From: an uncultured Prevotella sp. | GTDB lineage: Bacteria; Bacteroidota; Bacteroidia; Bacteroidales; Bacteroidaceae | Direction of reading: 5' to 3' | DNA: 64,000 nucleotides | Assembly: GCA_905233165.1 (NCBI GenBank) | Contig: CAJODL010000001.1 | Coordinates: 627,927-691,926 of the forward strand | Shown: positions 168 to 43,393 of the stretch, piece by piece | How the letters are laid out: each line of letters opens with the position of its first letter | Numbering within the stretch: the first letter of the stretch is position 1 | Made by a program: the position numbers and the translations under genes | The notes under the pieces: generated by a model | What the model was told of the DNA's origin: nothing | What the model saw: only the letters and a program-made list of their open reading frames with translations | Databases searched by the model: none

Positions 168-833
168 CTACCAAAATATAAATTGTCCAATAATTTCTTT
201 GCATACATACCAGAGTGCTGTAAATACATTTTTTGAACTCCAATAAGCAACGATTATTGTGCATATATTAAACAGAATGGCTGTCGCAATATAAGTATAC
301 GAAAAATATAGTGGACGTTTGTTAATATCAGTTTGGTAGTTGCCTATTTGATTTTTCCATGTATTTGCATGAAAGGCAATAGATATTCCTATTATTATGT
401 CTATACACCATAAAAATGTGGTAGAGCAGATAGAACGAAAAGCCAAAAGAATGTATGTGTAAATTGGAAAACAGTAAGGAGATAGGTCAACAAAAATCAG
501 TGTTTTATCATTACCGCTTGTTGTTATCAGACCACTATCGTTTTTAGCTTCGAAAGAGTGTATTCTTCTAAGAAATAAAATTGCGACCAAGGTATGTGTT
601 AACTCGTGTGTGAAGGTCTCAAACCATTGCAGATTACTTTTTATATATCTTTTAACAATAAAGAACAGGACTACTCCTATTGTTGTCCACTGATAGAGTT
701 GCAGATTACCAATCCATGTACCATACCTTGGGTGAATAATACTGTATATTACATCCCATATTGTGGCAAGGATAGCCAAGGAAAGTAATGTAAATAATAC
801 TGTTAATATGATGTATTTTGTTCTATATATCAT
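168..833 (-). CDS. Polytopic membrane protein with HExxH motif (M50-like metallopeptidase candidate)
   Basis: ORF 221 aa; several hydrophobic segments; HELTH motif followed by LSPYCFP segment; 1 bp from the upstream gene in the same operon. Confidence 0.6.
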   Translation of the reverse strand: MIYRTKYIILTVLFTLLSLAILATIWDVIYSIIHPRYGTWIGNLQLYQWTTIGVVLFFIVKRYIKSNLQWFETFTHELTHTLVAILFLRRIHSFEAKNDSGLITTSGNDKTLIFVDLSPYCFPIYTYILLAFRSICSTTFLWCIDIIIGISIAFHANTWKNQIGNYQTDINKRPLYFSYTYIATAILFNICTIIVAYWSSKNVFTALWYVCKEIIGQFIFW

Positions 834-834
834 G

Positions 835-1281
835 TTACTGATTATTATTCTTTCTCAGAATTTCTGCTACAATTAGTGCAGGACAATCCACATAATCACC
901 ATTTTTATTTAGGGTTATCATTGTAATTCCCTTCAAATATTTTACGGAGAAATCCTTTCTCTGTATAGTTTCAAGCAATCTCCTCGCTTGTGGCATTTTA
1001 TTGTTGTTTGCATGCAGAAGTATCATTGCGTTAGAATTGTATTCTATTTCGAAAAGACTGCTTCTTTTTTTTGTCTTCAGACCTTGACTCGTATAATGTT
1101 TTTTTAGATAGAAATTAAGAGTGTCCACATGAATAGGCACGAATAAAGCTTCTGTAGGCAGTATTTGCTCTTCCGTATTCTCTGCTGCCATTTCCTTTAA
1201 ACCACAATGATTTGATGCGTATATTCCAAGTATCACGATAATTATCATGCCTAAAATGAAATATATCAATTTGTCTTTCAT
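835..1281 (-). CDS. Hypothetical protein with N-terminal membrane anchor
   Basis: ORF 148 aa; single N-terminal TM segment; 1-bp gaps to both neighbours. Confidence 0.75.
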   Translation of the reverse strand: MKDKLIYFILGMIIIVILGIYASNHCGLKEMAAENTEEQILPTEALFVPIHVDTLNFYLKKHYTSQGLKTKKRSSLFEIEYNSNAMILLHANNNKMPQARRLLETIQRKDFSVKYLKGITMITLNKNGDYVDCPALIVAEILRKNNNQ

Positions 1282-1282
1282 A

Positions 1283-4200
1283 TTATCTCATGTATTTTTT
1301 AAAACTGTTACTATTTACAATATTTTCAAGCACATTGTTAATCATATTCCAGTAAACTTTTTTTTCTAAGGTAAGTTGCTTAAATCTAAAATATACCACC
1401 ATAAATTTGTTATCATCTAATGATTTGATTTTATCAGAAGTAATGTCATGGTTACAAATGATAACTGCGAGCATTCTATCATCATGTGTCTTGTTCCCTA
1501 AGCTTAATGTGCCAGTTTTTGCATATAAATGATACCCCTTTAATGTATTTAACTCTTTTGCTGTTCCTTTTTGAATACAACTGAACATTCCTCTATATAG
1601 ATTATTTTGATAGAATTCCAAGTGTTTTTTTTGAGTATTTCCGTTTCTACCTAGCCATGGATCTTTGAACTTTGATTTTCTCGGCATTACACTAGCGTGA
1701 AAATCAGGGTGAAGAGAGTATAGCTTACCATACATCTCTGCCATCTTCATTGGAGTAACTTTAACAGGCGAAGCACCTAAAGTATATTGTCTTAGGCGCT
1801 CAGCAGGTGTTAGTTGAGAATCTTCCATCTCATAGTTGTATATTGTTGATGCTTGAGGAAAAGCCCAAGCGAATCTGCTTGAAACCTTAGCTTTGTTCTC
1901 TAAATTATTTTCCTTATAAAGATTAGTATTAATAAATTCATATCTCAAGGAATCAACCCACCCAATAAAAGTAGGCATATGGAAGTTCTTTGTGAGACCA
2001 TCAAACAAAATTTGTTCAGAGGTAGCAGTTGGGGCATTACGGAAAGTATATATCTGTCCATTCTGCTCTATTCTGAATCGTGGAAAATCATTGATATCTT
2101 TTGAAATAACAAATATCTCATCCTTTGCGTTCGCTAAACTTTCATAATGTCCCAAATATGTAATTAGTGCATTGTAATAATTACTTGATTGTGATAAGTA
2201 AAATTCGTTGTCAATCCATTGTCCATCTCCATTTTCATCGCTTGCTATAGATTTGAATGGTCTCTGGTCACTATAAGTGTATTTTGGACCAAATTTTTTT
2301 ATGTAATAATATTTGTCATCTGATTGTGCAACTTCTTTATTCTGAATTACCTTGGGACTCATAAGCTCTAGTCCTGCCCAATTTATGTCTTGACTCTGCG
2401 ATGTAACAGCAGCATACGTGATAGGCTTAAGAGAGGATCCAGGACCAGGTCTCATATAGCATAAGTTGAGATTGCCAAACAGATTTTCGTCTCTCATTGA
2501 GTTCGGATTCATGTAACTTTGTGTAGCTAATTCTTCAATTAGAGTTTCATCATTAGGATCTATAGAACCTGAAAGTTTGTTGTCAGCCATGAGTCTGACA
2601 TTTCCTAAACCGTCTATTGCTACAACAGAACATTCATGTCCTGTTTGTTTAAGTGTTTCTGATATATGTTGGGTAAGTTTGCTATCTAATGTAACAAAGA
2701 CCATGTCTCTGCTCCCTGTTCCTTGTTTGCTATATGCCACTAAATTAGAAAAATCTCTAAGCCATAGACATTTTTCTTTTAATGGATAAAAGAACCGACG
2801 CTTTCCATTAATAACAATATTCTTTACGAGTATGTCCTGTTCGTCTCGACCATATTGATAAGTAAGAGATTCTTTGCTTTTTGTATCCCTTAGCTCCAAG
2901 AAATTTTCTGGTGAAATCTGGAATACTGCAGTTGATGCAGTGTAGTCTTTCATCTCTCTATGAAGTATTACTTTGTAGTTTTCTCCAATATGACCATCTT
3001 TCATGCGGCTATCCACAATAGCCAAATCTACATTTTTAGGTAGCCATGACTGTGGTATAGAGTAAACAATAAGTCCAGGTAGTTTTGTAAGCATCAATGC
3101 ACTGCTATCATTTGTAGCAGATATTTCAGAATATATATTTCCTTTCCATGCTTTTTTATCAAATTCAGGGCTTTGTAAACTGAAATAAGCATTGTTAAGC
3201 GCTAATTCAAAAGTATTAAGATCTTGATGTCTTAGATGAATAATATTTCCATTTGAATTTTTGCGTTTTAAATTATTAGTAAAAGCCTGATATAGTGAGT
3301 AGGTGAAATCATTTATCAGCCCTTCTTCCTTTAATTTATTTACATGCTCACTTAGGTGAATTTTTTCTTCAATATCTTTTACCAGCGAACTTATGTCCTC
3401 TTCATTAACTAATTGATGACCTCGTGCTGGATACTGAGAAAGAAGACTATTTATCCCTGCTAATTCATCTTTACTTGTTGCCATTGCAGTAGAGATGTTA
3501 AACTCTTCCGCATTCATTTTGTCTCCTTGCACTTTGTTGTTAGCATAAAGCTCACCATAGTTATTCCCGCAGAAATAAACTATTAAAGCTATAACGATAA
3601 ATATCAAAAAGAAGGTCGTTTGTGGTCCGCGCTTTGTAAAAGATTTCAGACCTTCTTTTAATTCAGAGTTGTCTTCATCCTTTGGATGATAGCATGCAAA
3701 TACAACAAAAGCAGCAATCCACATTGCAAACATTATTAAGGTGAATCGCGCATTCTGACTGAGGAAGGGAAAATCCTGACCAAAGAAAACCGTTCTATTG
3801 GTTACAGCCATCCACTCGAAGGTGCTCTGTACCACAAATAGCAATGCTATTGCAAAAGTAAGAGTCCTTCCAGCAGGAGAATTATTCTCATTTTGGAATG
3901 TTCTCCATAATAGTACAAGTGAGAGTAATATCATTGTAATTGGTACAAGCCAAGACAATTCTCCTATCACGTATCTGGATAGTATCACATCACTAATCTG
4001 GGTGTTCCATGTAACACCCTTCTTGAAGTGTGGCAGTAAAGACATAATACCATCATCAGTGACACGCTTCTCTCCTTTATTGATATGATATTGTAGGAAC
4101 CACTGATTCTGAGCTGCATTTAACAACCTTTGGGAATTGCTGTGATTATAACTCTCATTCTGCATTATCCTACCTACAGTCTGTGTATGAATAATAGCAC

Positions 4201-6499
4201 GATACTTAAAATGAAGATTGTTAGTTTGGAAATAGTCATATCCTATTGTTGCTGTACTAACGACAAATGTTAGCCATACAAAGATAGCTATAGCTCCTTT
4301 CCACTTAAAATCATATCTTTTCCATAGCCATGTAACCAATAATAAGATAAAACCCATAATTAAAGGCAAAAGGATAAAGAACAGTCTTGAGGTGCTGATG
4401 AACCCGAGGAAAGAATCTTCTTGATTATAGGCTGTCCATACACAGTATGGAAGGAATATAACCATAACAATTACTAAGAATACAAGAACTGTGAAAAGGG
4501 GAAATCCTGCAGCTTTTCCTGCAGTGTGGTCATAATATCTGTATTTCAAAAATGAATATAGGATTATCGAATAATATATGCATTCAAAAATGAAAAACAT
4601 TATAGCATAGCCAGGATCCCCTATGAATAATGCAGCCAAAGTGAATAGCGCATTAGCAATTCTGTAACCAACGGGTAATCCTCGAGCTATAATGTATTCA
4701 TTAAGAATGAAGAATGATACAGGTACCAATATATTTAATCCTACAATGCTTATATGGGCAAATTTTGTTATCAATACAATAGCTATCGGTAAAAATAAAA
4801 ATATACTATAGACAATCTTTTTCCATAATTTTCTTAGTTCAAAGTTTGGTAAGTATTTTATGCAAATCCAGAGTGATAGTGCAGTAACAGGCATTAGTAT
4901 CCATAAACCTATGGTTATTAATATTGGATTCTCCAATAAATTAGGAAGTTTCATTGTATATCTTAAGAACTCATTGAGTGTTATGTCCGTTACTGGTGGG
5001 AAGACTGCAATTCTCCACAATAGGTATATTCGAATAACAAAAAAAGGAATGGCAAATAGGCTTGCTATCATCACAACCTTTGATGTATGTCCTTTTGTAA
5101 ATATCATTGAATATAAGAAGGTAAGGAATAGAATACCAAAGACAAGAAAAAGTATTGTGATATCCTTTACCCATATATTATCCTCTCCAGTTATAGGGCT
5201 TGATTGTCTGAGATTGCATACGTTGAAATGCCATACTGCTCCGTTTTTGGCTGTCAATGTGTTTAATAGTTGGATAGTATTGATACTATTATCATTGAGT
5301 ATAGCCTTAAAAGGAGTTTGGCTGTCATCTATCATGTAATTAATATTGCCATTAAAATTATACTCATTATTCTCATTTTCAAACAATGGGTAGTAAAAGG
5401 CCTCATTTACATTTGTCTTGAGAAGTGAGGCTGTCTTTGATGTGACCGCAATGACTTTCTGCCTATTCTCTGCCTCCGCATCATCTGCCAGTCCTGGAAA
5501 ATTATTTATGTATGGGAACTGATATCTTAAACGAATGCAACCATCACTATAGACAGCCTTTAAAGGACGAGTGGCTTGGCTCCCTATACCAATGTAGTAA
5601 TAAGTGTCTTTATCCAATTCTTCTGTCTCTAACGCATTAGAGGCAATGAATTCCTTACCATCGCAGAAAAGCTTGACATCTTTCAAACTTTGTGGATATG
5701 TCATATAAAAGACATCTTGCTCTTTGTCCTCATGATTCCTGACTAAGAATACTTCATGTAATGTATTTAAAAGTTCTTCTTCTCCAGTTTCTTCATAAGA
5801 TGTACTGCTATGTAGAATGTCATATAAATTATATCCTATTTGAATAGGTAGTTTGAATGATGGTTCATATTTTTTCTGAGTGTTGTTCGATAGATGATTG
5901 AATGATACTACAACCTTTGTAGAATCCTTTTTGTCTTCTTTGATTGTTCTAATAGAGATGTTGCAAATTATAGAATCATTCTGAAGTGTTATTTTATCAT
6001 GAAAAGAAGGCAATTGTCCTTTGTTAATCAGTCTTCCTGTTCTACTATCATCTACTTTCGCAAATATTGGTTCGCTGAGGATGTTATAGTGGAGTATGCA
6101 GTTCTGGCTATCACTGTTTTTAGGAGTTATTGACGCAAACCCCTCGTAATTCTTTTTATCAAAGAAAGATTGAGTTTTGTTTTTTCCTACCAGTAAGACA
6201 GAATCCTTTTTGTCCACCCCTTGCATTACCAACACATGATAGTCAGCATTACTATATACAGAAATATTAGGATGCAGGTAGTTGAGTGTTATTAATACCG
6301 ATGCTACTGCTGTTATAGTCCAAGGAATAATTAATTTAGCCTTGTCTTTTATAAATGAACACCATAGAAGTGTAAGCGTACATATTACAAAATATGCGGA
6401 AAAGGTAAAGGAGAAAATAATGTTTGCTATAACTCCAATGATTATGCTTATAATACAGAGGAGACCAATACCAATAAAACCCTTCGTTTTTTGTTCCAT
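1283..6499 (-). CDS. Giant polytopic protein with C-terminal penicillin-binding transpeptidase domain; candidate FtsW/RodA (SEDS)-PBP fusion
   Basis: ORF 1738 aa; ordered motifs SSLK (SxxK), SSN (SxN), KTGT (KTG); multi-TM N-terminal half with FtsW-like segments (e.g. SDVILSRYVIGELSW, FGQDFPFLSQNARF). Confidence 0.8.
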   Translation of the reverse strand: MEQKTKGFIGIGLLCIISIIIGVIANIIFSFTFSAYFVICTLTLLWCSFIKDKAKLIIPWTITAVASVLITLNYLHPNISVYSNADYHVLVMQGVDKKDSVLLVGKNKTQSFFDKKNYEGFASITPKNSDSQNCILHYNILSEPIFAKVDDSRTGRLINKGQLPSFHDKITLQNDSIICNISIRTIKEDKKDSTKVVVSFNHLSNNTQKKYEPSFKLPIQIGYNLYDILHSSTSYEETGEEELLNTLHEVFLVRNHEDKEQDVFYMTYPQSLKDVKLFCDGKEFIASNALETEELDKDTYYYIGIGSQATRPLKAVYSDGCIRLRYQFPYINNFPGLADDAEAENRQKVIAVTSKTASLLKTNVNEAFYYPLFENENNEYNFNGNINYMIDDSQTPFKAILNDNSINTIQLLNTLTAKNGAVWHFNVCNLRQSSPITGEDNIWVKDITILFLVFGILFLTFLYSMIFTKGHTSKVVMIASLFAIPFFVIRIYLLWRIAVFPPVTDITLNEFLRYTMKLPNLLENPILITIGLWILMPVTALSLWICIKYLPNFELRKLWKKIVYSIFLFLPIAIVLITKFAHISIVGLNILVPVSFFILNEYIIARGLPVGYRIANALFTLAALFIGDPGYAIMFFIFECIYYSIILYSFLKYRYYDHTAGKAAGFPLFTVLVFLVIVMVIFLPYCVWTAYNQEDSFLGFISTSRLFFILLPLIMGFILLLVTWLWKRYDFKWKGAIAIFVWLTFVVSTATIGYDYFQTNNLHFKYRAIIHTQTVGRIMQNESYNHSNSQRLLNAAQNQWFLQYHINKGEKRVTDDGIMSLLPHFKKGVTWNTQISDVILSRYVIGELSWLVPITMILLSLVLLWRTFQNENNSPAGRTLTFAIALLFVVQSTFEWMAVTNRTVFFGQDFPFLSQNARFTLIMFAMWIAAFVVFACYHPKDEDNSELKEGLKSFTKRGPQTTFFLIFIVIALIVYFCGNNYGELYANNKVQGDKMNAEEFNISTAMATSKDELAGINSLLSQYPARGHQLVNEEDISSLVKDIEEKIHLSEHVNKLKEEGLINDFTYSLYQAFTNNLKRKNSNGNIIHLRHQDLNTFELALNNAYFSLQSPEFDKKAWKGNIYSEISATNDSSALMLTKLPGLIVYSIPQSWLPKNVDLAIVDSRMKDGHIGENYKVILHREMKDYTASTAVFQISPENFLELRDTKSKESLTYQYGRDEQDILVKNIVINGKRRFFYPLKEKCLWLRDFSNLVAYSKQGTGSRDMVFVTLDSKLTQHISETLKQTGHECSVVAIDGLGNVRLMADNKLSGSIDPNDETLIEELATQSYMNPNSMRDENLFGNLNLCYMRPGPGSSLKPITYAAVTSQSQDINWAGLELMSPKVIQNKEVAQSDDKYYYIKKFGPKYTYSDQRPFKSIASDENGDGQWIDNEFYLSQSSNYYNALITYLGHYESLANAKDEIFVISKDINDFPRFRIEQNGQIYTFRNAPTATSEQILFDGLTKNFHMPTFIGWVDSLRYEFINTNLYKENNLENKAKVSSRFAWAFPQASTIYNYEMEDSQLTPAERLRQYTLGASPVKVTPMKMAEMYGKLYSLHPDFHASVMPRKSKFKDPWLGRNGNTQKKHLEFYQNNLYRGMFSCIQKGTAKELNTLKGYHLYAKTGTLSLGNKTHDDRMLAVIICNHDITSDKIKSLDDNKFMVVYFRFKQLTLEKKVYWNMINNVLENIVNSNSFKKYMR

Positions 6500-6504
6500 G
6501 TAGA

Positions 6505-7230
6505 TTAAAATTTAAGTTTATATCCAAATGCTGCAGTCTCAGTTTTTACACCTTGTTCCTCTAACCATTCATATACAGTAATAACACTTACAGGCACTGT
6601 AGTCGGATCTTTATAAAACTCTTCCAGTTTCATATCATTCAGTGAAAGATTATCCAATATCATTCTCAGCCCTTCAGTGTTATGGCTTACCTTGTTAAGG
6701 TCAGAATTACTTTCTTTCAAGAAATTTACAGTTTGAGAAGCAATCTCCCAAAGTAGGAGACTGATTTGACTCTTCACTTCTGGAGTCATAGGGCGTTTTA
6801 TGTGGTTGAATAATTCGTCCCATTGGCCACTATAACGATGGTACATTGCTTGACTCCATTTCTTTTCCATGCATTCCTCCGTTTCAGCAACAGAATCCTT
6901 CTTCTTTATGTTTTCTTCTGTTGCTTTGGTTTCTTTTGGCATTGTTTCTTGAGACTCTTCTTTCTCTGCTTTCTGTTGCTTGTCTTCGTCTGTTTCAGAA
7001 TAGGAAACTTCTGCACAATCAGTATCCACTGAAGAATCCTCATTTATAATAGTACAGTTCCTGTATTCCACGGCCATACATGTCAATGTTAGTAGGGGTA
7101 TCCCTAGAATGACACATAACAACATTTGCCAGTAGTCGGCAAAGATTATTGGACTAATAAAAGGCAATACTATGGTTGTTAGTATTGTTATTGCTTCTAT
7201 TGCAATCAATATATAATAAATCTTTTTCAT
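6505..7230 (-). CDS. Membrane-anchored hypothetical protein with charged Glu/Lys-rich linker
   Basis: ORF 241 aa; two N-terminal TM segments, then acidic/Lys-rich stretch; operon context. Confidence 0.75.
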   Translation of the reverse strand: MKKIYYILIAIEAITILTTIVLPFISPIIFADYWQMLLCVILGIPLLTLTCMAVEYRNCTIINEDSSVDTDCAEVSYSETDEDKQQKAEKEESQETMPKETKATEENIKKKDSVAETEECMEKKWSQAMYHRYSGQWDELFNHIKRPMTPEVKSQISLLLWEIASQTVNFLKESNSDLNKVSHNTEGLRMILDNLSLNDMKLEEFYKDPTTVPVSVITVYEWLEEQGVKTETAAFGYKLKF

Positions 7231-7244
7231 CGTTCTCTATGTGC

Positions 7245-9524
7245 TCAAGTTGTTTTTATTTCTGGGATGTCACAATTTTTGTCCAATACTCTGTAAGGGT
7301 AGGGGAAGAGACTTTCGTATAGCATATCGTTGTTTCGCTGTTCTACACAAGGTGTTAACAGAATGCTACTATTATCATCTTTTGCATAGAAATCTTTTCC
7401 ATCGTAAAATAGTGTGTATTTGCGTTTGTCAAATGTTTGTCTGTTTTCTCCCTCATATTCGTCATCAGAGATATAGAAATGAGTGTTTTCATTACAATTG
7501 TCTATTACCAGTTCACCACGCATAATTTTTACTATGTCATTATTTCCTGCATCAAGATTAACTTCTTTATCTTCATTCTTTGTCTGTACTGTACTTTCTA
7601 AAATATCAAAATGCATCAAATTACGAATTTTTGATACACACATGTCGAGGTGGTCTTTCCATGTTTTTTTGTAATTATCTGCAATAACTATTTCCGTATT
7701 ATCATTTGTCTCTGATAAAATCCTATCAAACTTTTTCTCCATTCTTGACTTTTCGCTGCTTCTCTTGGTAACATCAACAGCAATAGGAATTCCTATCATG
7801 TCAGATTGCTTGCTTATCTGAATAGATTTCAGCGGACCTATCAGGCAACCTTTTTTCAGTTGTTCATTATTAAGAACTACAATTCTGCCTTCCATGTGAT
7901 ATATCTTCTCTAAAATATTTATTGTGGCAGTTTGGAAAGGTTTATATTTAAAGGCTCTTCCGCTAAGTATTATATTTTCAAACCTGTTCTCTTTGACGTT
8001 AGTTACAATTTTCTTTATTATCTTGTTGATAGTCGATTGGATAATGTTAAGATTATCGCCAATATCTCCACGTTTCGCAATGTAGTCAATAATGGTGGTT
8101 ACATTCATTCCCTCCTCAATCTTTAGGTTGCTATTACTGTCGTTTATGATAGGGTTCTCCTTCTTCTTGTAATTTTCAATGATATTCTCTAATCTGTATA
8201 AATCAGCTTCCTCGGCTTCAGAAAGAACTTTTTTTATAATATTTTTTGCCTTCATTAGACCTCCCATTGTGACGATATAATTCACGAATATGGCATAAGT
8301 CAAAGCATTTCCCGCCCCAACAAATCCCGAGCGGTATATACTAACAGCATTACTGCCATTTTCTACTTTGATGATAGAAAAGTCCGTCGTACCCTTACCT
8401 ACGTCAATGACAAGATAATTACCTCGTCTCACATTCGTGTTTCCATTACAAAACCATGAAACAAACGAAGCATCGCTTTCAGAATAGGAGTGTATGTCAA
8501 AGATAACCTCTTTCATCTTCTCTGGCAACAGTTGTCTGAATTCTTCAGAATCTGCTTTCTGTCGCACATCATTGATGAAGTCGGAAAGTTGTCCCTGTTC
8601 CATTACGTTAGGCACGAGAAGGTACAAACGGATTCCACATTTCACTCCGTCACGATTTTTCTCACATACTTCCATTACTATCTCATGGAGGAATCTCATA
8701 ACGATGCCTTGATGCAGGTCGTTGAGATCTATCTCTTCAGGACATTCACCTGAAAGGTATGATATTTTAATGTTTGGCAGACGTTGGCCTTTGTTGCTGT
8801 CGTCCCTTTTGGTAATAAAATCCAGCAGAGGATCTTTCTCACCAGGTTTGGCAATGACATTTTTGTCTCTATTTTGATTGTTGGTTAACTCTTTCGGTAG
8901 GAAATATACACTCCTGAAAAGTTCTTCGTCTGCATCTTCTTGTTGGTCGAATGTACGAGGTTTTATTTCATCTGATTCTAAACCATAAAAATGCTTGGCA
9001 CAATTTTTGAACAACTCACTATATCGAAACTGGTCCTCTCTGTTTATCAGCATCTGACTCGCTTCTGAACCGACATCCAACACTACCTCATAGATATTTT
9101 CTTGCGGAATACAGTCTATTATAAACTTTCCCTTGTATTCCACACCCTGTTCTTCATAATGGAAAACTATAGTGTATGTTTCTGCGCTTTCGCTTCCTTG
9201 ATTGTATATCTCCCAGTTGTTACCATCTTTTACAAAACGGAAATTACTTCCAATATACTCCTCTTCATCTTTATTTTTATTTGTAAGAGTAATATCAAGC
9301 TGATAACCCTCCTCAGAAACAGAATCGATATAAACTTTTCTATCGTGTTTTCTACTTGTGTAGGAAACCAGTTTCAGGTTCTCAACCTCGAGTTTTAGTA
9401 ATTCTACTCCTGATCGTGTATTGGCAAACAGTTGTTTCTCGTCATTTATCTCTTGCTCGACATTGTCATATAGTTTTAGGTTATATGCTCGCTCGCCACT
9501 TTTAAAATAGAGATGGTAAATCAT
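7245..9524 (-). CDS. Actin/Hsp70-fold ATPase-like protein
   Basis: ORF 759 aa; VVLDVGSEAS (phosphate 1-like), VIDVGKGTTDFSIIKV (phosphate 2), IILSGRAFKYKPF (adenosine motif-like). Confidence 0.75.
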   Translation of the reverse strand: MIYHLYFKSGERAYNLKLYDNVEQEINDEKQLFANTRSGVELLKLEVENLKLVSYTSRKHDRKVYIDSVSEEGYQLDITLTNKNKDEEEYIGSNFRFVKDGNNWEIYNQGSESAETYTIVFHYEEQGVEYKGKFIIDCIPQENIYEVVLDVGSEASQMLINREDQFRYSELFKNCAKHFYGLESDEIKPRTFDQQEDADEELFRSVYFLPKELTNNQNRDKNVIAKPGEKDPLLDFITKRDDSNKGQRLPNIKISYLSGECPEEIDLNDLHQGIVMRFLHEIVMEVCEKNRDGVKCGIRLYLLVPNVMEQGQLSDFINDVRQKADSEEFRQLLPEKMKEVIFDIHSYSESDASFVSWFCNGNTNVRRGNYLVIDVGKGTTDFSIIKVENGSNAVSIYRSGFVGAGNALTYAIFVNYIVTMGGLMKAKNIIKKVLSEAEEADLYRLENIIENYKKKENPIINDSNSNLKIEEGMNVTTIIDYIAKRGDIGDNLNIIQSTINKIIKKIVTNVKENRFENIILSGRAFKYKPFQTATINILEKIYHMEGRIVVLNNEQLKKGCLIGPLKSIQISKQSDMIGIPIAVDVTKRSSEKSRMEKKFDRILSETNDNTEIVIADNYKKTWKDHLDMCVSKIRNLMHFDILESTVQTKNEDKEVNLDAGNNDIVKIMRGELVIDNCNENTHFYISDDEYEGENRQTFDKRKYTLFYDGKDFYAKDDNSSILLTPCVEQRNNDMLYESLFPYPYRVLDKNCDIPEIKTT

Positions 9525-9541
9525 AATTTTATATCGTTTTA

Positions 9542-10606
9542 TTAGTTTCGTATTGTTATTTTTGTCAATTTAGGATAGTTCTTGTTTGTTGGGTTGAGAT
9601 TGCTTCCCAAGGTTTTCAGCTCCGTCACCTTAAACCCTCTTCTTATGTATTCTCTAAGTTCAGATGATCTGTAATATGAAACCTGTTGTGGAATGCCGTC
9701 CACCATAAATGTAGTATTCCCGAATGGTGAAGGACTGTTGGTTATAAGCATCTCTTTAATTTTCGGGTCCTGTGTTGCTAATAGTTCTGTGATAAAGTCA
9801 TAATAACTTACATTTATTGCTTGAACTTCAGAGGTTGTTTTATCAGACTCTCCCCTTAGATATATTGTGCAATTATCCTTGAGGAAAAGAGTATCATTCT
9901 TGCTTATTATGTTTGCCTGAAGCTTCCAGTTGATGTCATCTGTGTTTTTTACTTTTTTCTGATAATCAATATAGTATTCTATTGCCTCAAATTTTGTGTC
10001 TCCAAAATAAACAGTACATGTTTTAGAATCATAAATAGCATTGACTTTGTATTTTGAACTTGTCTTTTGAGTTATGTTATCTATTATGGAATTCTCGTTT
10101 GTATTACCGATCAATCTTGGGAGAAGAGTTATGATTATTCCCAGTACTATACCGGCAACCAATCCTGCACCACTTATATACAACCATTTTCTGTCAATAG
10201 GCTTCTTCGTAGAATAGGGTTTCGCTATTGTTTCTGATTGTTTCCACTTAATGATTGTATCTGGACTTGCTATTCCGTTTAAAAAGATGATTCTTCCTGT
10301 CTTTACATCTGCAACATACAAACTCTTGAGCAGAATGTTGCATAAATCTGATGCAGGACCTGCACCTATGTTATTTGTGATATATTCGCCTATCTCTTTA
10401 TAGATGTCAGCATTATTCCTGTCAGCGTAATTCAGTATTAAGAGTTCGTCCAGAAGATGAGTGTGGATAAATTCTTTGAAGAAACTATATACCTTAGAAG
10501 ATTCCTCATCCTCATGATTAATCAAAAACAGAATCAGCCTTTTCCCGTCATCCTTGTAAATGACGTTTTCTTTTGGAACCAATATCTCGTATTTCATATT
10601 TCCCAT
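9542..10606 (-). CDS. Single-pass membrane protein, hypothetical
   Basis: ORF 354 aa; internal TM segment WLYISGAGLVAGIVLGIIITLLP; operon context. Confidence 0.75.
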   Translation of the reverse strand: MGNMKYEILVPKENVIYKDDGKRLILFLINHEDEESSKVYSFFKEFIHTHLLDELLILNYADRNNADIYKEIGEYITNNIGAGPASDLCNILLKSLYVADVKTGRIIFLNGIASPDTIIKWKQSETIAKPYSTKKPIDRKWLYISGAGLVAGIVLGIIITLLPRLIGNTNENSIIDNITQKTSSKYKVNAIYDSKTCTVYFGDTKFEAIEYYIDYQKKVKNTDDINWKLQANIISKNDTLFLKDNCTIYLRGESDKTTSEVQAINVSYYDFITELLATQDPKIKEMLITNSPSPFGNTTFMVDGIPQQVSYYRSSELREYIRRGFKVTELKTLGSNLNPTNKNYPKLTKITIRN

Positions 10607-10620
10607 AGGTTAAGGTGTTG

Positions 10621-11289
10621 TTAAAGGGGTACAATCCGATAAACATCCCCTAATAGAATCATTGCCTTGTTGCCCATGTCTTTAGGCTGTTTTATCATGT
10701 ACACTTTGTAGTCTTTACGGTCCTTTTCTTTTATCGTGTTCTTTTGCTCTACAGAGCCTGCAAATTCTACGCTTTGATATTCCTGCATCAGGCTGACCGT
10801 TGATTCGTAAATCTCACTCCCATCAGAAAGATTCCCTTTCTTTTTCCAATTCTTGGGATCAGCCAGTTTACCATTGATGTAGCCCTCTACTATTCCGATT
10901 TTATAGGATCTATATTTAATCCCATTTAGAGATTGCGTTTTTAGAGATGCCAGATATGTCGGCATTCTCGAATTTCTATATTTGTAGCTGCCGGAGGTCT
11001 TGTCATACCAACTGGTCTTCATCTTTCTGTTGGCAAAATCAAGGAATAGAGGAGGAATGTCGTTTTCAATGATTTCCTGCTTCTGGCAGGCAGCCCTCAA
11101 CAAATCCTTGTTTGCCCTTGATGGAGGCGTGTTGCCAACCTTGGTGATAAATCTACATAACTGCATCAGTTTATGATAAAGCTCATTTTGCACAGGCATC
11201 AGTTCGTTTCTCGTCAATCTTGCGTCTTGGGCATTGGTTTGACAAGTAAAGGCTATTAGTAATATGATGATAATGATTCCTTTCTTCAT
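10621..11289 (-). CDS. Secreted hypothetical protein
   Basis: ORF 222 aa; signal peptide MKKGIIIIILLIAFTCQTNAQ. Confidence 0.75.
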   Translation of the reverse strand: MKKGIIIIILLIAFTCQTNAQDARLTRNELMPVQNELYHKLMQLCRFITKVGNTPPSRANKDLLRAACQKQEIIENDIPPLFLDFANRKMKTSWYDKTSGSYKYRNSRMPTYLASLKTQSLNGIKYRSYKIGIVEGYINGKLADPKNWKKKGNLSDGSEIYESTVSLMQEYQSVEFAGSVEQKNTIKEKDRKDYKVYMIKQPKDMGNKAMILLGDVYRIVPL

Positions 11290-11304
11290 ATTCGTCCACT
11301 ATCT

Positions 11305-12141
11305 TTATCGTTTCCGTTTTCCCTCTTGGTAAATATAGTGTCTCAAAACTTCCCCGGAACCTTGCTGCGTAATTTTTATCAAGAAGCATCTTGCATCCTT
11401 TTCTTTGTTGGGAGGGATATATCCACTAAAAACATCAAAATAGTCAACATTAATATTTATATTGTCTGGAGTAGAGTATGTATAATATGCCCGTTCGCTT
11501 TTTATAAGACGATTTTCCTCTCCAAAATATCCTTGTTTTGTATTTATAACACTATGCAGCTCAAATTCCCATGCTCCACCTTGGCTGGATAAATGGCTGA
11601 CATTTTTGTTAATATAGAATTCATATTCATTTGTGGTAATCTGATCCTCTGGTATGAGATACATTCGAAAATCAATACTCCTGATTGATAAGCTATTATA
11701 ATCTTTTCCTCTCCATATAACAGTCATTTCTATAGGGGTGTCCTTTATGCGTTGTTGCAGGTCATCCTCAATGTTTCTTTGCAACATACCCTTAACCTTA
11801 TATACACTGGTTCCGTAATAGTTTTCGATGCTTGTAACTTTAAATACATGAGTGATGCTATGATCCTTCAATATATACTGTTTATACCAATTCAGAAAAC
11901 TGGTCATCTTGATTTCATCCGAATTAAGATAAAATGTGTTGATATCCTTTTGGTATGCTGCTGCGATATCTTCCGGACTTAATTTTTCTATAGGATTATT
12001 CATTTCAGAAATCTTATAGAAAAATTCCCTTACAGCACGCTCTATATCTGCATTCACATTGTATCTGCTTTGGGCAGACAATGCTGTAGGGGGGAATGCA
12101 AGGCATAATAGCAATATGGTAATCCGAATGCTTGGTTTCAT
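11305..12141 (-). CDS. Secreted hypothetical protein, first gene of operon A
   Basis: ORF 278 aa; signal peptide MKPSIRITILLLCLAFPPTALSAQ; -7 element TACATTTG on the minus strand ~55 bp upstream. Confidence 0.75.
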   Translation of the reverse strand: MKPSIRITILLLCLAFPPTALSAQSRYNVNADIERAVREFFYKISEMNNPIEKLSPEDIAAAYQKDINTFYLNSDEIKMTSFLNWYKQYILKDHSITHVFKVTSIENYYGTSVYKVKGMLQRNIEDDLQQRIKDTPIEMTVIWRGKDYNSLSIRSIDFRMYLIPEDQITTNEYEFYINKNVSHLSSQGGAWEFELHSVINTKQGYFGEENRLIKSERAYYTYSTPDNININVDYFDVFSGYIPPNKEKDARCFLIKITQQGSGEVLRHYIYQEGKRKR

Positions 12142-12198
12142 TAGGTTCTGATATTGGGTGTTGCAACCCTATAATTTGCTTATGATTACTTTTAGGTG

Positions 12199-12206
12199 CA
12201 AATGTA
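12199..12206 (-). promoter_or_regulatory. Bacteroidetes-type -7 element (TACATTTG) for operon A
   Basis: TAnnTTTG match with TTTG 18 nt upstream, within sequence shared with operon B promoter. Confidence 0.6.
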
Positions 12207-12311
12207 TTTATTTTTTCTCAAATACAAAAGAAAATACAAAGTTTTTTTTACAAAATGTATCCAAATATACCCAATTATAACCAAAGAGGGTAGGGGAAAG
12301 TATTATACAAA

Positions 12312-12371
12312 TCCTTTCACTACTGTCTAATATGACCGATTAATCAACCCTTATTGGACAGTAGTGAAGGA
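12312..12371. repeat. Inverted repeat (~20-bp arms): TCCTTTCACTACTGTCTAATA / TATTGGACAGTAGTGAAGGA
   Basis: Arms read directly at 12312-12332 and 12352-12371; one mismatch and one indel; lies 10 bp downstream of the 12381-13451 ATPase gene. Confidence 0.85.
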
Positions 12372-12380
12372 TGAATGTGT

Positions 12381-13451
12381 TTAATTACAGTATCTGATAA
12401 TCCATTCTTTAAAGAAAGGGTCTTCTACTTCATATTTTTCCACCTTCATTACATACCCACTTTTCATCAACCTTTTTATTCCACTATATGTAGTGCTACT
12501 TGCCACCATTCTATTCTGTAAGGGGGTATTTCCTCTACAAAGACTCACCATGATGGAACGATCTGTTCGATTGAAATTAAGCCATAGACGTTCAAAATCC
12601 AAATCATGTGTACGCACAATAGTTTCTATAGCCTCTTTTACGACTCCGTCAACAATGCTTTCATAGGTCATCATATCCCATACCTGCGCAGAGAGTTGTT
12701 GAGTGTAGTATGGATGGAGATTAGTAAAAGATAATATCTCCTCTACTATTCCATACAGTTTTTCTGGTTCTTTTATCGGTAAACGTGTGGCAACATATTC
12801 CCTGAAATCATCATAGGGTATCTTATTAAGATGCATCAGCTTTCCAAAATGGTAGAAAGGGGACTTCTTTCGTTCAAATATCTCTGTCATCATTGATTCC
12901 TGACTTCCCAAGAGCACATAATTAAGATTTTCCTGGGTTTGCATGATGGAACGCAATTGCTTATCCAGCCCTTTACGTATATTCAGGATTTCCTGAAATT
13001 CATCAAATACCACGATTATCCGATTTCCTTCTGTACTAACTTTTTCTATTAACGACATTGCATCTTCAAGCAGTACGATGCTGTCCATCACAGGTTGGAA
13101 AGAAACATCAATGCCATTTGTAACAGGGTTTGTTGAAATTGTTGGTACAATGCGGAAATGAGACATCAAATGTTTGATTCGCTCCAATGGATATAGACGG
13201 AAAAGTTCACGTAATAGTTTGGACGCAAAATCATCGACACTCAGTATATTCTGCATATTCAAAGAAATACACGGACGACCTGCCGTTTTGACTGCTTTTG
13301 CAACAAGACTTGACTTGCCAAACCTTCGTGGACTGATTAGTACCAGATGGTTCTCACTATTCAGCGTCCACATAACCTCTTTAAGTTCTTCGTTTCTGTC
13401 GGTAAAGAACTCATCATCAACGAGCACTCCAAACTTGAATGGATTTTTCAT
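12381..13451 (-). CDS. AAA ATPase of the archaeal-type ATPase_2 family
   Basis: ORF 356 aa; NHLVLISPRRFGKSSL Walker A, RIIVVFDEFQEI Walker B; own promoter TATCTTTG at 13478-13485 (minus). Confidence 0.8.
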   Translation of the reverse strand: MKNPFKFGVLVDDEFFTDRNEELKEVMWTLNSENHLVLISPRRFGKSSLVAKAVKTAGRPCISLNMQNILSVDDFASKLLRELFRLYPLERIKHLMSHFRIVPTISTNPVTNGIDVSFQPVMDSIVLLEDAMSLIEKVSTEGNRIIVVFDEFQEILNIRKGLDKQLRSIMQTQENLNYVLLGSQESMMTEIFERKKSPFYHFGKLMHLNKIPYDDFREYVATRLPIKEPEKLYGIVEEILSFTNLHPYYTQQLSAQVWDMMTYESIVDGVVKEAIETIVRTHDLDFERLWLNFNRTDRSIMVSLCRGNTPLQNRMVASSTTYSGIKRLMKSGYVMKVEKYEVEDPFFKEWIIRYCN

Positions 13452-14018: not shown

Positions 14019-16352
14019 TTACAATTCCGTCATTTGCTTCTCTCCTGTGAATATCATTTGGATGAAAATTCCCCAGAACATAGCTATGAATGAGAACATT
14101 ATTAGGAAATCACGCATGAAGAAAATTTTATATCCAAATATAGTGATTTTCTCGACAATTTTATGACCATCTTTTGTTGCTTCTCGCAGATTATCTACCT
14201 TTTTTATGTCTGGAATATCGTTGGGATCATTAATATCATTTAATCTGTTTATGATAGCCTTTCCATAGCTTACCCATTGGCTGTCATTTAATATTTCTTC
14301 ATTGGAGTTGCTGCAGTAAGCAATAGTATCAACAATATACGATTTTCCATTGACGTCTTGTTGAACATGTTGGTCGTAGTAATCACCAATATAGCTACCT
14401 CTCTCTAAGAATTTCTCTCCTAAAAAGTTAATAACAACCACTCCAACTAATAATGAAATGCAGTAGCTGATTATCAGGAATTCAACCCCCCTAAAGATTT
14501 TTCTTAAATTATTGCTTGCAGGCATAATCCTGTTGATCTCGTACATAATAAACATGAAGACCACCATGGAAATAGCTATAGCAGTATGCCACCTTGGACT
14601 TGAGTCAAAAAATGACACATATATATCAAATCCTAAAGACATTGTTAACCAACCAGCAGTAATAGCGGCAACCAACCTCGGAAACAAAAGATGGAGACTT
14701 GAAATAGGATGTAAAGCAGGAAGCCCCAATTTAGGTGTCTTTATTGATATATAAAATAGAGCGGATAATATAAAGAAAAACCAAATTGGAGCCCATTCCC
14801 CCCATTCTCCCCATTCCTTACCTATTACTGTATTGAACACCCCAATACATATTGCATAAAAGGATAAAAATGAGAATATTATATATGTTCTCTTAAAAAC
14901 GGTTGCTCTTCTTTTTCTTATGATTAAGTCTTCCTTTGATGCATTATTCCATATCGAATATATTGTTGGTGGGCAGATAATAGCTACTATTCCTATAGTA
15001 ACGAAGTAAATGATATTGTCTGAAAAAGTCTCATTCAAATCATTCAAAACATTCAGATCTATTAAACGTAGCAGCCAAAATAGTAAAATAAATACAATGC
15101 ATGAAACTATAATAAAATTCAAGCCTTTAAAGAAATGCAAATGAATAACGTCATTAAAATCATAACGCTTAAGAAACCATCGAGAAATAAGCTCCCTGTT
15201 TCTATCATTGGTGGCTACCAATGAAACTGATATATTGTCCTTACTATTATTAATTTTGAAGTATTCAATTAGAGTGTCAGTATTGCAGATGTGTTTTTTT
15301 CCAGAATCTTTTTCTTTCATTGTGAAGCATACACGCCTCATCTCCTCCTCAGGTTCAGAAAACCACAAGTTTCTGTCATATTCAAAGTCTTTTTCTGCTT
15401 GAGGATTCATAATATCTTGCACCCATAAATCCTCAGCTTTAACAAGTTCATTTGCATACAAGACTTTTATAGACTCTTTTCTCTGTTCAATTTCATCCTC
15501 ACTAACATTATCTTTTCTCTGTTCAATTTCATCTATAGCCTCTCTCGTCAGCTTTCTATAATAGTAGTACTCACACTTGTGCATTAATGCAGAGAAATAG
15601 AAGTTTGACATCAACCCCGAATACATCTGATCATAATACCGACTATTTTGGAAAACATCAGAATGTTTCAAATCGAACATGAAATCTAATAGCAATTTGC
15701 GTAAGAAACCAACGATATCTTTTCTTTTGTCCTCTTCTTCATAAAGATAAATGCTTTTGCCGTTTGTCTTTGTCAAGTTCATGAGCCATAAAGTCGAATA
15801 AGAATGAAGTATGTCAACTGCATCTTGCAAAGATTCATACAACCCTTGTTTAATTCGATTTATAATTATACCCCCTTGTGTGTTATCTTCTAATGGAAAA
15901 CGGCTCCTGATAAGTTGTTCTAAGAAACGTCCCCCAGAACTGCCATCTTGCTTATTGTCATCGGATGTGATTTTTAAAGGAAATTTTGTGTAATATAGTT
16001 CTTTAATTGTTTCGGTTAATTTGTCTGTGGCATCATTTCTATATGGCAATTCAAATATCACCTCTTCCATATGTGCCATATTCATTCCTTTAGTTGTGCC
16101 ACCGTTTTTTTCCCTAATTTCTTCGACACTATATCCATATATTGATTCTTCCTCTACCTTATATACACTATAGTGTAATCTGAAGCGTACTGAATTTGAG
16201 GTGATAGTAACGCTTACGGGATATTTGGGTGACATAAGATTGTCTTCGGAGGGGCCGAAATATGCAGGCAAATCTACATAATCGTATATTGCTACTCCAT
16301 CGTTAACTTTTGATATGCTCTGATTTAAACGAAAGAATCTGCCGTTATTCAT
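14019..16352 (-). CDS. Large multi-pass membrane protein, hypothetical, last gene of operon B
   Basis: ORF 777 aa; soluble N-terminal half, ~8 hydrophobic segments in C-terminal half; 4-bp gap to upstream gene. Confidence 0.75.
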   Translation of the reverse strand: MNNGRFFRLNQSISKVNDGVAIYDYVDLPAYFGPSEDNLMSPKYPVSVTITSNSVRFRLHYSVYKVEEESIYGYSVEEIREKNGGTTKGMNMAHMEEVIFELPYRNDATDKLTETIKELYYTKFPLKITSDDNKQDGSSGGRFLEQLIRSRFPLEDNTQGGIIINRIKQGLYESLQDAVDILHSYSTLWLMNLTKTNGKSIYLYEEEDKRKDIVGFLRKLLLDFMFDLKHSDVFQNSRYYDQMYSGLMSNFYFSALMHKCEYYYYRKLTREAIDEIEQRKDNVSEDEIEQRKESIKVLYANELVKAEDLWVQDIMNPQAEKDFEYDRNLWFSEPEEEMRRVCFTMKEKDSGKKHICNTDTLIEYFKINNSKDNISVSLVATNDRNRELISRWFLKRYDFNDVIHLHFFKGLNFIIVSCIVFILLFWLLRLIDLNVLNDLNETFSDNIIYFVTIGIVAIICPPTIYSIWNNASKEDLIIRKRRATVFKRTYIIFSFLSFYAICIGVFNTVIGKEWGEWGEWAPIWFFFILSALFYISIKTPKLGLPALHPISSLHLLFPRLVAAITAGWLTMSLGFDIYVSFFDSSPRWHTAIAISMVVFMFIMYEINRIMPASNNLRKIFRGVEFLIISYCISLLVGVVVINFLGEKFLERGSYIGDYYDQHVQQDVNGKSYIVDTIAYCSNSNEEILNDSQWVSYGKAIINRLNDINDPNDIPDIKKVDNLREATKDGHKIVEKITIFGYKIFFMRDFLIMFSFIAMFWGIFIQMIFTGEKQMTEL

Positions 16353-16356
16353 AATC

Positions 16357-18858
16357 TTATTGCATCTTTAAAGTTTTGATATAGCTCTCAATGTGAGCAA
16401 CCATATTTTGATATTCTTCTGTTGAGACTTTGTCTACATAATTAGCAACATTGTTTTGAGCATCAAACTGTCCCTTAAAATAGTTATATTCTTCCCACAT
16501 TTCAGGCCACTGACGTATAGTACCAAAAGCTGTTAAATGAACTAATTGTGTTAAATGCTCTAACATTCCTCCCAAATTTACATTCTTACTAATAAAATCC
16601 GTGACAAGTACAGAGCCTTTTGTGTTAAAAATACTATCATCTTCAGGAATGTCAACATCCGCTAACATCTTTCGATAGTGATATTGGAGGCTCAATACCT
16701 CTTGATATTTTTTATTAGCATTTTTCCTTACAGCTCCCTTTACAGGATTGAAAATAGACTCAACTATCTTATATATTTCCTTTGGAGAAAGTTTTAGTAT
16801 ACCTGAGTGCTCCAACCGGTTTTCCATCAGTTTTATAAGGTTATATAGAAATAGTTGTGGAGTATTAGTCGGACATGCTCCGATAGCTATTTGCCAATAA
16901 TCTTCTATTTGGTTCAATCCTTCTGCAAGCAGACGCTCATAAATAGCCGATGAATATGCCGAAATAAATAGGAAGAAGAATTTTCCGTTAGGTCCCATAC
17001 CTAATTTATATTTATCATCTCCAACCTTTGTATGCTTACTTATATCTTCTAATAGTTGATATCCGTAATGATTTCCAGTAGGATCTGTTAAAAGGTAGTC
17101 AAGTAAGATGATATCATATTTTTTTAATCGTAAGGCTTCCTCTGCTTCCTTTTCAGTTTCTGCATATTCTATTATAAATGGGCTATGCTCTATTGCATGC
17201 ATTTGAAATTCTGATTTGTTTAATAATTGATTTTCAAAATCTTTTTTCTTTTCATCATTCCATTTTTGGGGAAAAATAATCTTTATTCCCCTATATACTG
17301 TGTTTAGTTTAAAATCAATTGAACTTATTTCCTCTTCAATTAATTTAATTTCTTTGTTTGCAACTACACCTGTGTAGATAAGTTTGTAGATAAGTTTTTC
17401 TACGTTACTATTTGAATTATTCGTTTTCGTTAACTCTTGCAGTTCCAATGAAAAATTTTTAATATTTGTGTCGCTTTTGTTACGTCCATTAACCTCAGAA
17501 ATTTTCTCTTGCAGGCGTGTTTGTATATGTTTTATCTCTGATTCTTGTACACCCTCATATAATTGTATGTTTAGAAGAAAACATTTCTTTTCTTCACATA
17601 CCTCTATATCCGTTGTACCTAAATCAGCTTCATTAATCCATGAATGTTTTTTTCTTGTTATATTGCCCCATATTGTGGCGACAAAAGCTTTTAATAGTTT
17701 ATTCAGTTTTAGTGGTTTAGAAAGATCGATAATTTTATCTTTAATTTCTGAAGCCTTATCTATTGAAAAACATTTAATATTTACTCTGTCTGAAAGTTCT
17801 GATGTCTTTTCGAATGACATCGGTAAATATGAAACATTTTCGGTAGTAATATCAACGTCGTTTGCAGTGGAGTTAATTAAAGAACGAATTTCTGTAAGTT
17901 TTTGTTCGTTTATAGGACTTTTAAATTCAAGATATAAATCATCACCCTTGACTATATTCATCTGATTAAAGTGTCTATCAGGGATGATGCTTCCTGTGTT
18001 TGAGTTTTCATTAAGTTTAAATTGTTTTTGTAGAAGATTTTTTATAATGGTTAGTTTACAATTCCACTGATGAGGGGCGTTTTCTTTTAAGTCATTAGCC
18101 ATAGCTTGTACAGCCTTATCGTCAACCAACAAAATACGCCATTTCTTACTCTTTATTCGTTCAATTATAGGAGTCTCAGTTAAATATTCTTGTTCTATCA
18201 ACTGTCGTATAACACTTTCTGAATGGAAAATGAAGGGTGAAACAGCCACAGCATGGGAACCCGCTAAATACGCTTGAGACGCAAGTCGAGCATTTAAGTC
18301 TGCGTATTCTTTAGCAACAGAAAGATTATATAGATGCTTTTGATAATTTCTATATATACTTTCTACTGCCTCATAAAAAACCTTTTCTATTTTTTCTTTA
18401 TCACTATATAGCGGAACGAGGTAGTTCCAGATGCTATTATCCATTATTTGAAATGAACGGGGAACAGAATTTGGCAAACTTTCACCATCATACATACTCT
18501 TAACAAAAAAATCTGTTAACACTAAATGTAAGATAGGTATATAGACTTTATTTTTATCATCAGTCTTTTTTAGGACAAAATCTGTTTGAGCAAAACTATT
18601 TACGTTGCCACTAGATGCATATCCTGTCAATATATCTTTTGGCGTGTGAAGAATCAATCGTATAAGGTTACCTTTTTCTTCATCTAATTTTTTATCCTCA
18701 TTCCATAGCGGAGTTTTACTATCTTTATTTAAATAACGAAAAAGAAAATCAAAAAAGAAAATTTTCTCATTATTAGAGTTCACGACATTATAAGAAAAAG
18801 TTTTGTTTTCGTCATTATCTCTTTTTATAATCAGTTTTGCTTCTAAATAATTACTCAT
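16357..18858 (-). CDS. Response-regulator-like protein with apparently split REC domain
   Basis: ORF 833 aa; KKWRILLVDD (REC beta1-like), and ~340 aa later EYAETEKEAEEALRLKKYDIILLDYLL (beta2-alpha2-beta3, phosphoacceptor Asp-like) plus FFFLFISAYSS (beta4). Confidence 0.65.
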   Translation of the reverse strand: MSNYLEAKLIIKRDNDENKTFSYNVVNSNNEKIFFFDFLFRYLNKDSKTPLWNEDKKLDEEKGNLIRLILHTPKDILTGYASSGNVNSFAQTDFVLKKTDDKNKVYIPILHLVLTDFFVKSMYDGESLPNSVPRSFQIMDNSIWNYLVPLYSDKEKIEKVFYEAVESIYRNYQKHLYNLSVAKEYADLNARLASQAYLAGSHAVAVSPFIFHSESVIRQLIEQEYLTETPIIERIKSKKWRILLVDDKAVQAMANDLKENAPHQWNCKLTIIKNLLQKQFKLNENSNTGSIIPDRHFNQMNIVKGDDLYLEFKSPINEQKLTEIRSLINSTANDVDITTENVSYLPMSFEKTSELSDRVNIKCFSIDKASEIKDKIIDLSKPLKLNKLLKAFVATIWGNITRKKHSWINEADLGTTDIEVCEEKKCFLLNIQLYEGVQESEIKHIQTRLQEKISEVNGRNKSDTNIKNFSLELQELTKTNNSNSNVEKLIYKLIYTGVVANKEIKLIEEEISSIDFKLNTVYRGIKIIFPQKWNDEKKKDFENQLLNKSEFQMHAIEHSPFIIEYAETEKEAEEALRLKKYDIILLDYLLTDPTGNHYGYQLLEDISKHTKVGDDKYKLGMGPNGKFFFLFISAYSSAIYERLLAEGLNQIEDYWQIAIGACPTNTPQLFLYNLIKLMENRLEHSGILKLSPKEIYKIVESIFNPVKGAVRKNANKKYQEVLSLQYHYRKMLADVDIPEDDSIFNTKGSVLVTDFISKNVNLGGMLEHLTQLVHLTAFGTIRQWPEMWEEYNYFKGQFDAQNNVANYVDKVSTEEYQNMVAHIESYIKTLKMQ

Positions 18859-18869
18859 GATAAAGTGAT

Positions 18870-20039
18870 TTAATTATTCGTTTCTCCAAGTTCAATATTT
18901 TTTATTTCATCATTAAGAATAGAAATTAATCTTAAATACTCTATATCTTGTTTACCTTCTTGAAGAGATTTTTCATCAAGGTTGGAAATGATGTTTGTTA
19001 TGTTTTTGAACTTGTCATCAGATAATATTTTAACTTTTATTTCACTTAGGTTTCCTTTAATAGCCAGTTCATATAAATCAAAGAGTAGTCCACGAGTTGT
19101 TAATTTGGATTCTACATAATCAAGGAGATCTTTAGATGTTTGTCCGGCATCTTTAAGAATTTCACCAAATTCACCTGTATGTTGAAATAGGGCAATGGTT
19201 CTTACTGTTGTTTGGCTATCTAACCTTGGATAATCCAATACTCCAGAAATCTCGTTGCATTTAATGTCTTTATCATGAAGGATTAGATAAAGCTTCTCCG
19301 CATCTTCATTTAATGTTAGAAATTGTGTGGATAAAGCATCTATCCAAGCGTTATCTAACCATTTTTTATTTTCTTCATCTTTTACTGGAGAACCTTCCTC
19401 AATTGGCCAAACGGCATATACGACCACGTCGTCACTGAAATCATTCAAACGATAATACGAAAACCTGTGATAAATCCATGGAGCAGGTGGAGTTTCTCTA
19501 TCTTTAGTCAAATAAACATTAAATTTTTCTTGTTGTCCCTCATTCTTTAAGTTATCAGCTATCCATTGTGAACCTTTTGTTCGCATGAAATCTATTTTGA
19601 TTGACTCTTCATCACATTTCTTATATTTATCAAACAAATCCATATACAATTGAGAATCCTCTAACTTGTTTAAATCCATTAGAATCTTAAGTGTCTTAAT
19701 CCATTTATATTCATTATCTTTGTTTATTTTTTTTGAAGTTAGATCTTTGTCTATTATTTCTTTGTATTTTGAGACAAATGCTTCCAATTCTTTGTATGCA
19801 TCATTTATTATAGGTCGTATTTTTCCCTCTATTTCGTCCTTACCTTCATTCTTAATGTATGAAGGAAGTTCTTTTAAAACATCTTTCGCATTGATATTAT
19901 CTTTAATATCATTCCAAAAATAGTCACATAACTTCTTATCACTCATAGGAAATGGTGTTGAAGACTTTGGGTTAAACAGAACATCGTCCCTAAATGGACT
20001 ATTAAAGTAAGTTGAAAAGACGATAACTTTTTTACTCAT
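18870..20039 (-). CDS. Hypothetical protein encoded between histidine kinase and response regulator
   Basis: ORF 389 aa; overlaps HK gene by 8 bp; no family recognised. Confidence 0.75.
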   Translation of the reverse strand: MSKKVIVFSTYFNSPFRDDVLFNPKSSTPFPMSDKKLCDYFWNDIKDNINAKDVLKELPSYIKNEGKDEIEGKIRPIINDAYKELEAFVSKYKEIIDKDLTSKKINKDNEYKWIKTLKILMDLNKLEDSQLYMDLFDKYKKCDEESIKIDFMRTKGSQWIADNLKNEGQQEKFNVYLTKDRETPPAPWIYHRFSYYRLNDFSDDVVVYAVWPIEEGSPVKDEENKKWLDNAWIDALSTQFLTLNEDAEKLYLILHDKDIKCNEISGVLDYPRLDSQTTVRTIALFQHTGEFGEILKDAGQTSKDLLDYVESKLTTRGLLFDLYELAIKGNLSEIKVKILSDDKFKNITNIISNLDEKSLQEGKQDIEYLRLISILNDEIKNIELGETNN

Positions 20040-30987: not shown

Positions 30988-31004
30988 ATATTTGTTGAAT
31001 GAAT

Positions 31005-31979: not shown

Positions 31980-32109
31980 GATAGTTTAGGTTTGTTAGTG
32001 ATATAATTTGACTGCAAAAATATGTATTTCTTTTTAATAATGGACTATTTATACATTTTTTAACATTGTTGTAGAGTTATAGTTGGTTATTATAATCAAA
32101 GAATAATGA

Positions 32110-33708: not shown

Positions 33709-33885
33709 AATTCCTGAATTAAAAGTTTGACTGAGGTGCAAAATTATGATGTTTTTATGATACAAAAAAGTTTTTTTATCCAAATTATTGGGACATTATT
33801 GCATCTTTTGTCACGTCAAAAGTGTTTGATATCATTTTTTTTTCGTAAGTTTGCAGCAGATTTATTAATCTCTACCTTATTGTAT

Positions 33886-34851: not shown

Positions 34852-34855
34852 GAAA

Positions 34856-37327: not shown

Positions 37328-37479
37328 AACACTCTCTGTTGTTTTTATAATTGGTGATTGCAGATATATTGCTGCAAAGGTATAAATTATAATTGAATAT
37401 ACAATGAAAAAAATCGGTATAATATTAAATTTATCTCAATAAAAATTCATTTTATAAAATATTTTTGTATTTTTGCGGC

Positions 37480-38547: not shown

Positions 38548-38554
38548 GTTGTCG

Positions 38555-42955: not shown

Positions 42956-43393
42956 ACTTATATATTTATACGACGTTTTGGTTAGCTTAGTTTTAGTGTT
43001 TATTACACATTTCGGGTACAAAGATAAACATTTTTTTTAATAAATCTTCAAAATGTAAAAAATAATATTTATTTTGATTAATGTTTGGTTGGATAAAATG
43101 TAAAATCACCCTTCGTCTTTCACCTAAATTCTGCGGATATCTCCGAATTATAAAATCACACAGTTAATCTATGTTAAATTATTCGGCATTGGCGTATGTT
43201 TTTTGGTTAAAATTTTGAGTAATTTAGAATTTTTAGTAATTTTGCAAATGTCATTCGGGATACATCACCTTGATAGTGGGATAATAGAGTTTCATGATGC
43301 TTTTGGTGGTCGTTTTTCTGATGATAAGATTATATTTAAGATAAGTTTAATTTATTATATATTGTGCCATGAGAACACAAAATCTTTACAATT

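Follow-up and report, generated by a model that had tools for sequence, protein, structure and literature searches.

The window, the 64,000-nucleotide stretch of Prevotella DNA analysed here, carries two consecutive transcription units on its minus strand, operon B (14019-28453) followed by operon A (168-12141; eight genes), the limits of both being inferred from gene spacing. Operon B encodes transport components (two BPD_transp_2 (Liv-type) permeases, two ABC ATPases, and a Peripla_BP_6 lipoprotein) together with a methyltransferase, a kinase-like protein of 1155 aa, a 389-aa protein, an 833-aa protein with a weak match to receivers, and a membrane protein of 777 aa. By our reading of its MSHNLGSH and ENVIRNAAKHGN motifs, the 1155-aa protein may be a divergent histidine kinase. 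Family and PDB searches did not support a kinase identity for this protein. In operon A, we identified sub-threshold matches to actin/Hsp70-fold families in a 759-aa protein (7245-9524) and a transpeptidase-like end in a 1738-aa membrane protein (1283-6499), the latter scoring 21.2 bits where the cut-off is 22.1. Searching the PDB by sequence for relatives of the three large proteins returned nothing useful, and apart from the products of the transporter, methyltransferase, and ATPase genes, the large proteins of the cluster reached no curated family cut-off. A gene of the ATPase_2 family (12381-13451, minus strand) lies between the two operons. It is followed by a strong hairpin (12310-12372, minus strand; z -4.3), terminator-like and without a T run, that may separate operon A from transcripts derived from upstream. 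The original prediction had linked the two operons across a distance of 16 kb. They do belong together, but they are consecutive on one strand, and the 16 kb between the shared blocks is operon B itself plus the one ATPase_2 (AAA-ATPase) gene.

Each operon is headed by a copy of the same block of DNA, at 12187-12279 for operon A (repeat family D3) and at 28467-28559 for operon B, both on the minus strand. Repeat search and gapped alignment (74/96 aligned columns) place the similarity between ~75 nt upstream of the -7 box and ~28 nt past the start of that box. The similarity of ~67 bp first described is thus real but somewhat longer than was stated. The intervals from which it was described (12191-12258 and 28471-28537) are alignable, both copies contain an exact 24-mer and the ACAAAATGT block, and both read TTTG-N18-TAnnTTTG on the minus strand. 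The downstream coding sequences are unrelated and the common part is regulatory, as had been proposed.

The primary-sigma consensus of Bacteroidetes comprises TTTG near -33, TAnnTTTG at -7, and an AT-rich spacer (PMC7366714). Because this published consensus falls inside the block, the block is the promoter itself and does not lie only upstream of one. Promoter A has the -7 box TACATTTG (12199-12206), with the -33 box TTTG (12225-12228) 18 nt from it, and promoter B has TATATTTG (28479-28486) and TTTG (28505-28508). The distance from -7 box to start codon is 65 nt in A and 33 nt in B. Both thus show TAnnTTTG close upstream of a gene and TTTG near -33, and they match sigma-ABfr promoters in boxes, spacing, and AT-rich spacer (PMC7366714). 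To that consensus they add a conserved spacer element, an upstream box, and a conserved leader. The spacer element, TTTGAGAAAA (12213-12222 in A and 28493-28502 in B), starts exactly 16 nt before the -7 box and forms the right half of the exact 24-mer, TTTTTTCTCAAATACAAAAGAAAA (12211-12234 and 28491-28514). The upstream box, ATTTTGTAAAAAA, lies 50 nt before the -7 box in A (12244-12256) and 49 nt before it in B (28523-28535). All of these elements are on the minus strand. The core also has an imperfectly symmetrical stretch, which recalls the near-palindromic promoter motif 2 of Bacteroides thetaiotaomicron (PMC7366714). The likeness concerns symmetry, not letters, and A and B differ in already having complete sigma-ABfr boxes. 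Moreover, dyads like that of the core are frequent in the promoters of this genome.

A genome-wide pattern search for the 24-mer, allowing up to 3 mismatches, returned these two sites and no other in the 3.02-Mb genome. With a 70-bp query, the second copy scored 81.5 bits (E value 6e-17) and the next match 36.5 bits (E value 0.002). Since the genome has no third copy, the whole element withstood the objection, raised along with the original prediction, that it might be a dispersed repeat or a generic promoter. The 24-mer was not found in viral contigs (IMG/VR), and a pattern search of 100 genus genomes with 3 mismatches gave just scattered matches at 2-3 mismatches.

Because AT-rich promoters resemble one another anyway, we measured the likeness of A and B against a background of 178 candidate promoters from 841 kb (28%) of the same genome, compared in register. 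A and B are identical at 56 of 77 positions, while the average pair among the 178 shares 26 (SD 5.4) and the nearest other promoter shares 40 with A and 42 with B. Mosaic promoter pairs, 600,000 in all, never scored above 50. Four real pairs out of 15,753 scored above A-B, three of which belong to one large promoter family and one to a local tandem repeat. The 5' leaders of A and B are identical at 12 of 18 positions (background 6.0), within the top 0.8% of promoter pairs, and no sigma contact explains this similarity. The exact run of 24 bp also somewhat exceeds the length expected if a duplicate decayed neutrally, with mismatches placed at random (P 0.016-0.035). The core is therefore probably subject to selection, exerted through polymerase contacts, through a regulator, or through both.

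The spacer element has a wider distribution. We identified TTTGAGAAAA in the same register in four promoters, namely A, B, that of a tRNA-Asp (L065), and one further (L061), and GAGAA stands at -13 in 7 of its 21 occurrences, where 0.3 would be expected per position. Two more position-locked spacer families, with TTTTGCTCA and TTTCTCA, precede unrelated genes; in the 841 kb, TTTGGTATTTTGCTCACTTAATCGTACCTTTG has 7 such promoters and TTGCATTTCTCATAACTTAATCGTACCTTTG has 9. It is therefore a general feature of this genome that unrelated genes can be preceded by identical spacers, and the spacer alone shows no regulon. By the same token, the 24-mer alone is not a regulator site, since it is largely the -33 box and a spacer element that other promoters have too. 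Three features set A and B apart: the upstream box, the TTTTCT sequence flanking the -33 box, and the leader. Position-locked spacers call for caution from anyone inferring a regulon from common promoter sequence; a description of such elements was not found in the literature searched, an absence that is weak evidence. The promoters with position-locked spacers of families TTTGGTATTTTGCTCACTTAATCGTACCTTTG and TTGCATTTCTCATAACTTAATCGTACCTTTG fall into two sets in this genome, one at L056:4524, L057:10100, L066:13992 and 14804, L074:8431, L081:16920, and L083:10803, and the other at L053:1320 and 18217, L056:10766, L060:12010, L066:14709, L069:3751 and 5376, L072:13828, and L073:14648.

Of three matches to the upstream box in the window's genome, one falls within a reading frame and the other two, in A and B, are non-coding. 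Genome G695 keeps ATTTTGTAAAAAA ahead of its orthologous B operon at exactly the spacing seen in B, 49 nt from the -7 box and 82 nt from the start codon. These 13 nt form the longest run common to the G695 promoter and any one of the 178, whether or not the two are compared in register, and 0.28% of promoter pairs have an in-register run of such length. Since the comparison covers three orthologues, this is suggestive, not strong, evidence of a possible footprint of the box in G695. Among the orthologous B promoters, which are few and divergent, 1 of 3 (G695) has ATTTTGTAAAAAA, at the same offset, and 0 of 3 have the 24-mer; the core is absent from all three (those of L038, L039, and G695) and also from the A promoter of L039. 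A 10-mer common to the A and B promoters of L039, seen by eye, was set aside because runs of at least 10 occur in ~6% of random promoter pairs. Searches for a structured leader RNA found neither an Rfam family nor a stable fold in either leader.

It is possible that a dedicated DNA-binding regulator recognizes the core (e.g. TTTTCT-N10-AGAAAA) or the box ATTTTGTAAAAAA and that A and B form its two-member regulon, though we consider this unlikely. The dyad TTTTCT-N10-AGAAAA, which spans the -33 box, is matched at A and B and nowhere else in the genome, the run of 24 bp is conserved beyond its surroundings, and the upstream box is kept at its 49-nt offset in G695. When searched against unrelated promoters, the whole element and ATTTTGTAAAAAA are unique to A and B, while TTTGAGAAAA recurs. 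Nevertheless, perfect dyads with arms of at least 6 are present in 65 of the 178 promoters and the reversed control of the dyad pattern is equally frequent, so that the dyad was not counted as evidence; a symmetrical operator was rejected, the dyad being unremarkable among promoters of this genome. The lack of the core in the four promoters of relatives also argues against a regulator, and family searches found no recognisable DNA-binding domain in A or B. The sole nearby candidate, a WYL protein (33727-34851), is 77% conserved in genome G188, where a search of 40 kb did not reveal the promoter element. We are a little more doubtful of the broader proposal that the cluster is an undescribed modular system, combining a Liv-type transporter and divergent kinase/receiver with an actin-/transpeptidase-like envelope module, and expressed as a two-member regulon under such a regulator.

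Convergence of two independent members of extended promoter classes on the same consensus is improbable and already disfavoured. Other families of this kind do exist before unrelated genes (TTTGGTATTTTGCTCACTTAATCGTACCTTTG and TTGCATTTCTCATAACTTAATCGTACCTTTG), and TTTGAGAAAA is itself such a class element, but A and B agree at 56 of 77 positions, whereas no other promoter matches either of them at more than 42, and the remaining GAGA-spacer members reach 30-40. The likeness reaches the leader and the upstream box, both missing in those members, and the 70-bp query found no further promoter of the genome with upstream box and leader. Because the similarity runs continuously through parts without known function, copying of a segment fits better than convergence. 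That a dispersed or mobile repeat came by chance to lie before both operons is very improbable indeed. While the genome has repeated non-coding DNA elsewhere, this block exists in two copies only, each in register with promoter boxes and start codons, and was not found in IMG/VR viral contigs. A dispersed repeat, as many copies independent of gene starts, is refuted for this genome (n=2).

We favour, as reasonably probable, the explanation that the A and B blocks are ordinary primary-sigma promoters with a TTTGAGAAAA spacer, homologous copies of one ~95-bp segment, which head a single B-A cluster and give it matched transcription. Judged from their sequence, the two promoters are very probably copies of each other. 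We hypothesize that one ~95-bp promoter segment was duplicated and that its two copies came to head B and then A, the successive transcription units of one accessory gene cluster. RNA polymerase would read both promoters alike, leading to matched expression, whereby the transporter/signalling half and the cell-envelope half would be made together. The two halves of the cluster would thus probably be activated at the same time, with matched transcription of A and B as the likely consequence. Three points count against this explanation. The excess length of the exact 24-bp run makes selection on the core likely, no relative carries both copies to show a duplication directly, and the adjoining coding regions, unlike the 95-bp promoter segment, are not duplicated. 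The common promoter is a direct and testable argument for regarding A and B as a single functional unit.

Gene order across relatives backs this unit independently. In L039 (genome G824), which belongs to the same family and a different genus, B is followed by A in the same order, and the link between the operons therefore stands without the promoter. B is present in L038 and G695, while G188 has A behind an AAA gene. As modules that are separable yet also joined, A and B are thus supported as functionally linked independently of the promoter. In L039 a Card1-like CARF endonuclease (L039:16975-18156) lies between B and A, where the window has the ATPase_2 gene, and the slot between them looks exchangeable. 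The cluster is rare, the kinase-like protein having turned up in 1 of 200 genus genomes and the permease in 2 of 399, both counts including the window's own genome. Relatives of the kinase-like and actin-like proteins were not found in viral contigs, nor was a relative of the kinase-like protein found in plasmids. A description of the B-A cluster was not found in the literature searched, a negative that carries little weight.

Upstream of B, the window (28610-43021) carries defence-type genes, including those for an OLD/AriA-like ATPase, AAA proteins, the WYL regulator, and a DUF4011/MTES_1575 helicase-nuclease that matches PADLOC PDC-S37 and Hhe. Several of these genes recur together in G188 (L041). 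The association of a WYL protein with defence-type genes (28.6-43 kb) recalls WYL-regulated defence operons; in contrast, the WYL gene accompanies those genes in G188 as well, where the promoter element was not found in 40 kb. A 351-aa protein without family (28610-29665) and a Sel1-like protein of 360 aa (37465-38547) are found again next to A or B operons in L039, L040/L041, and L049. Finally, a direct repeat of ~247 bp (58227-58479 and 63754-64000; 98-99% identical, spaced 5.5 kb) brackets the 58-64 kb region of the window.
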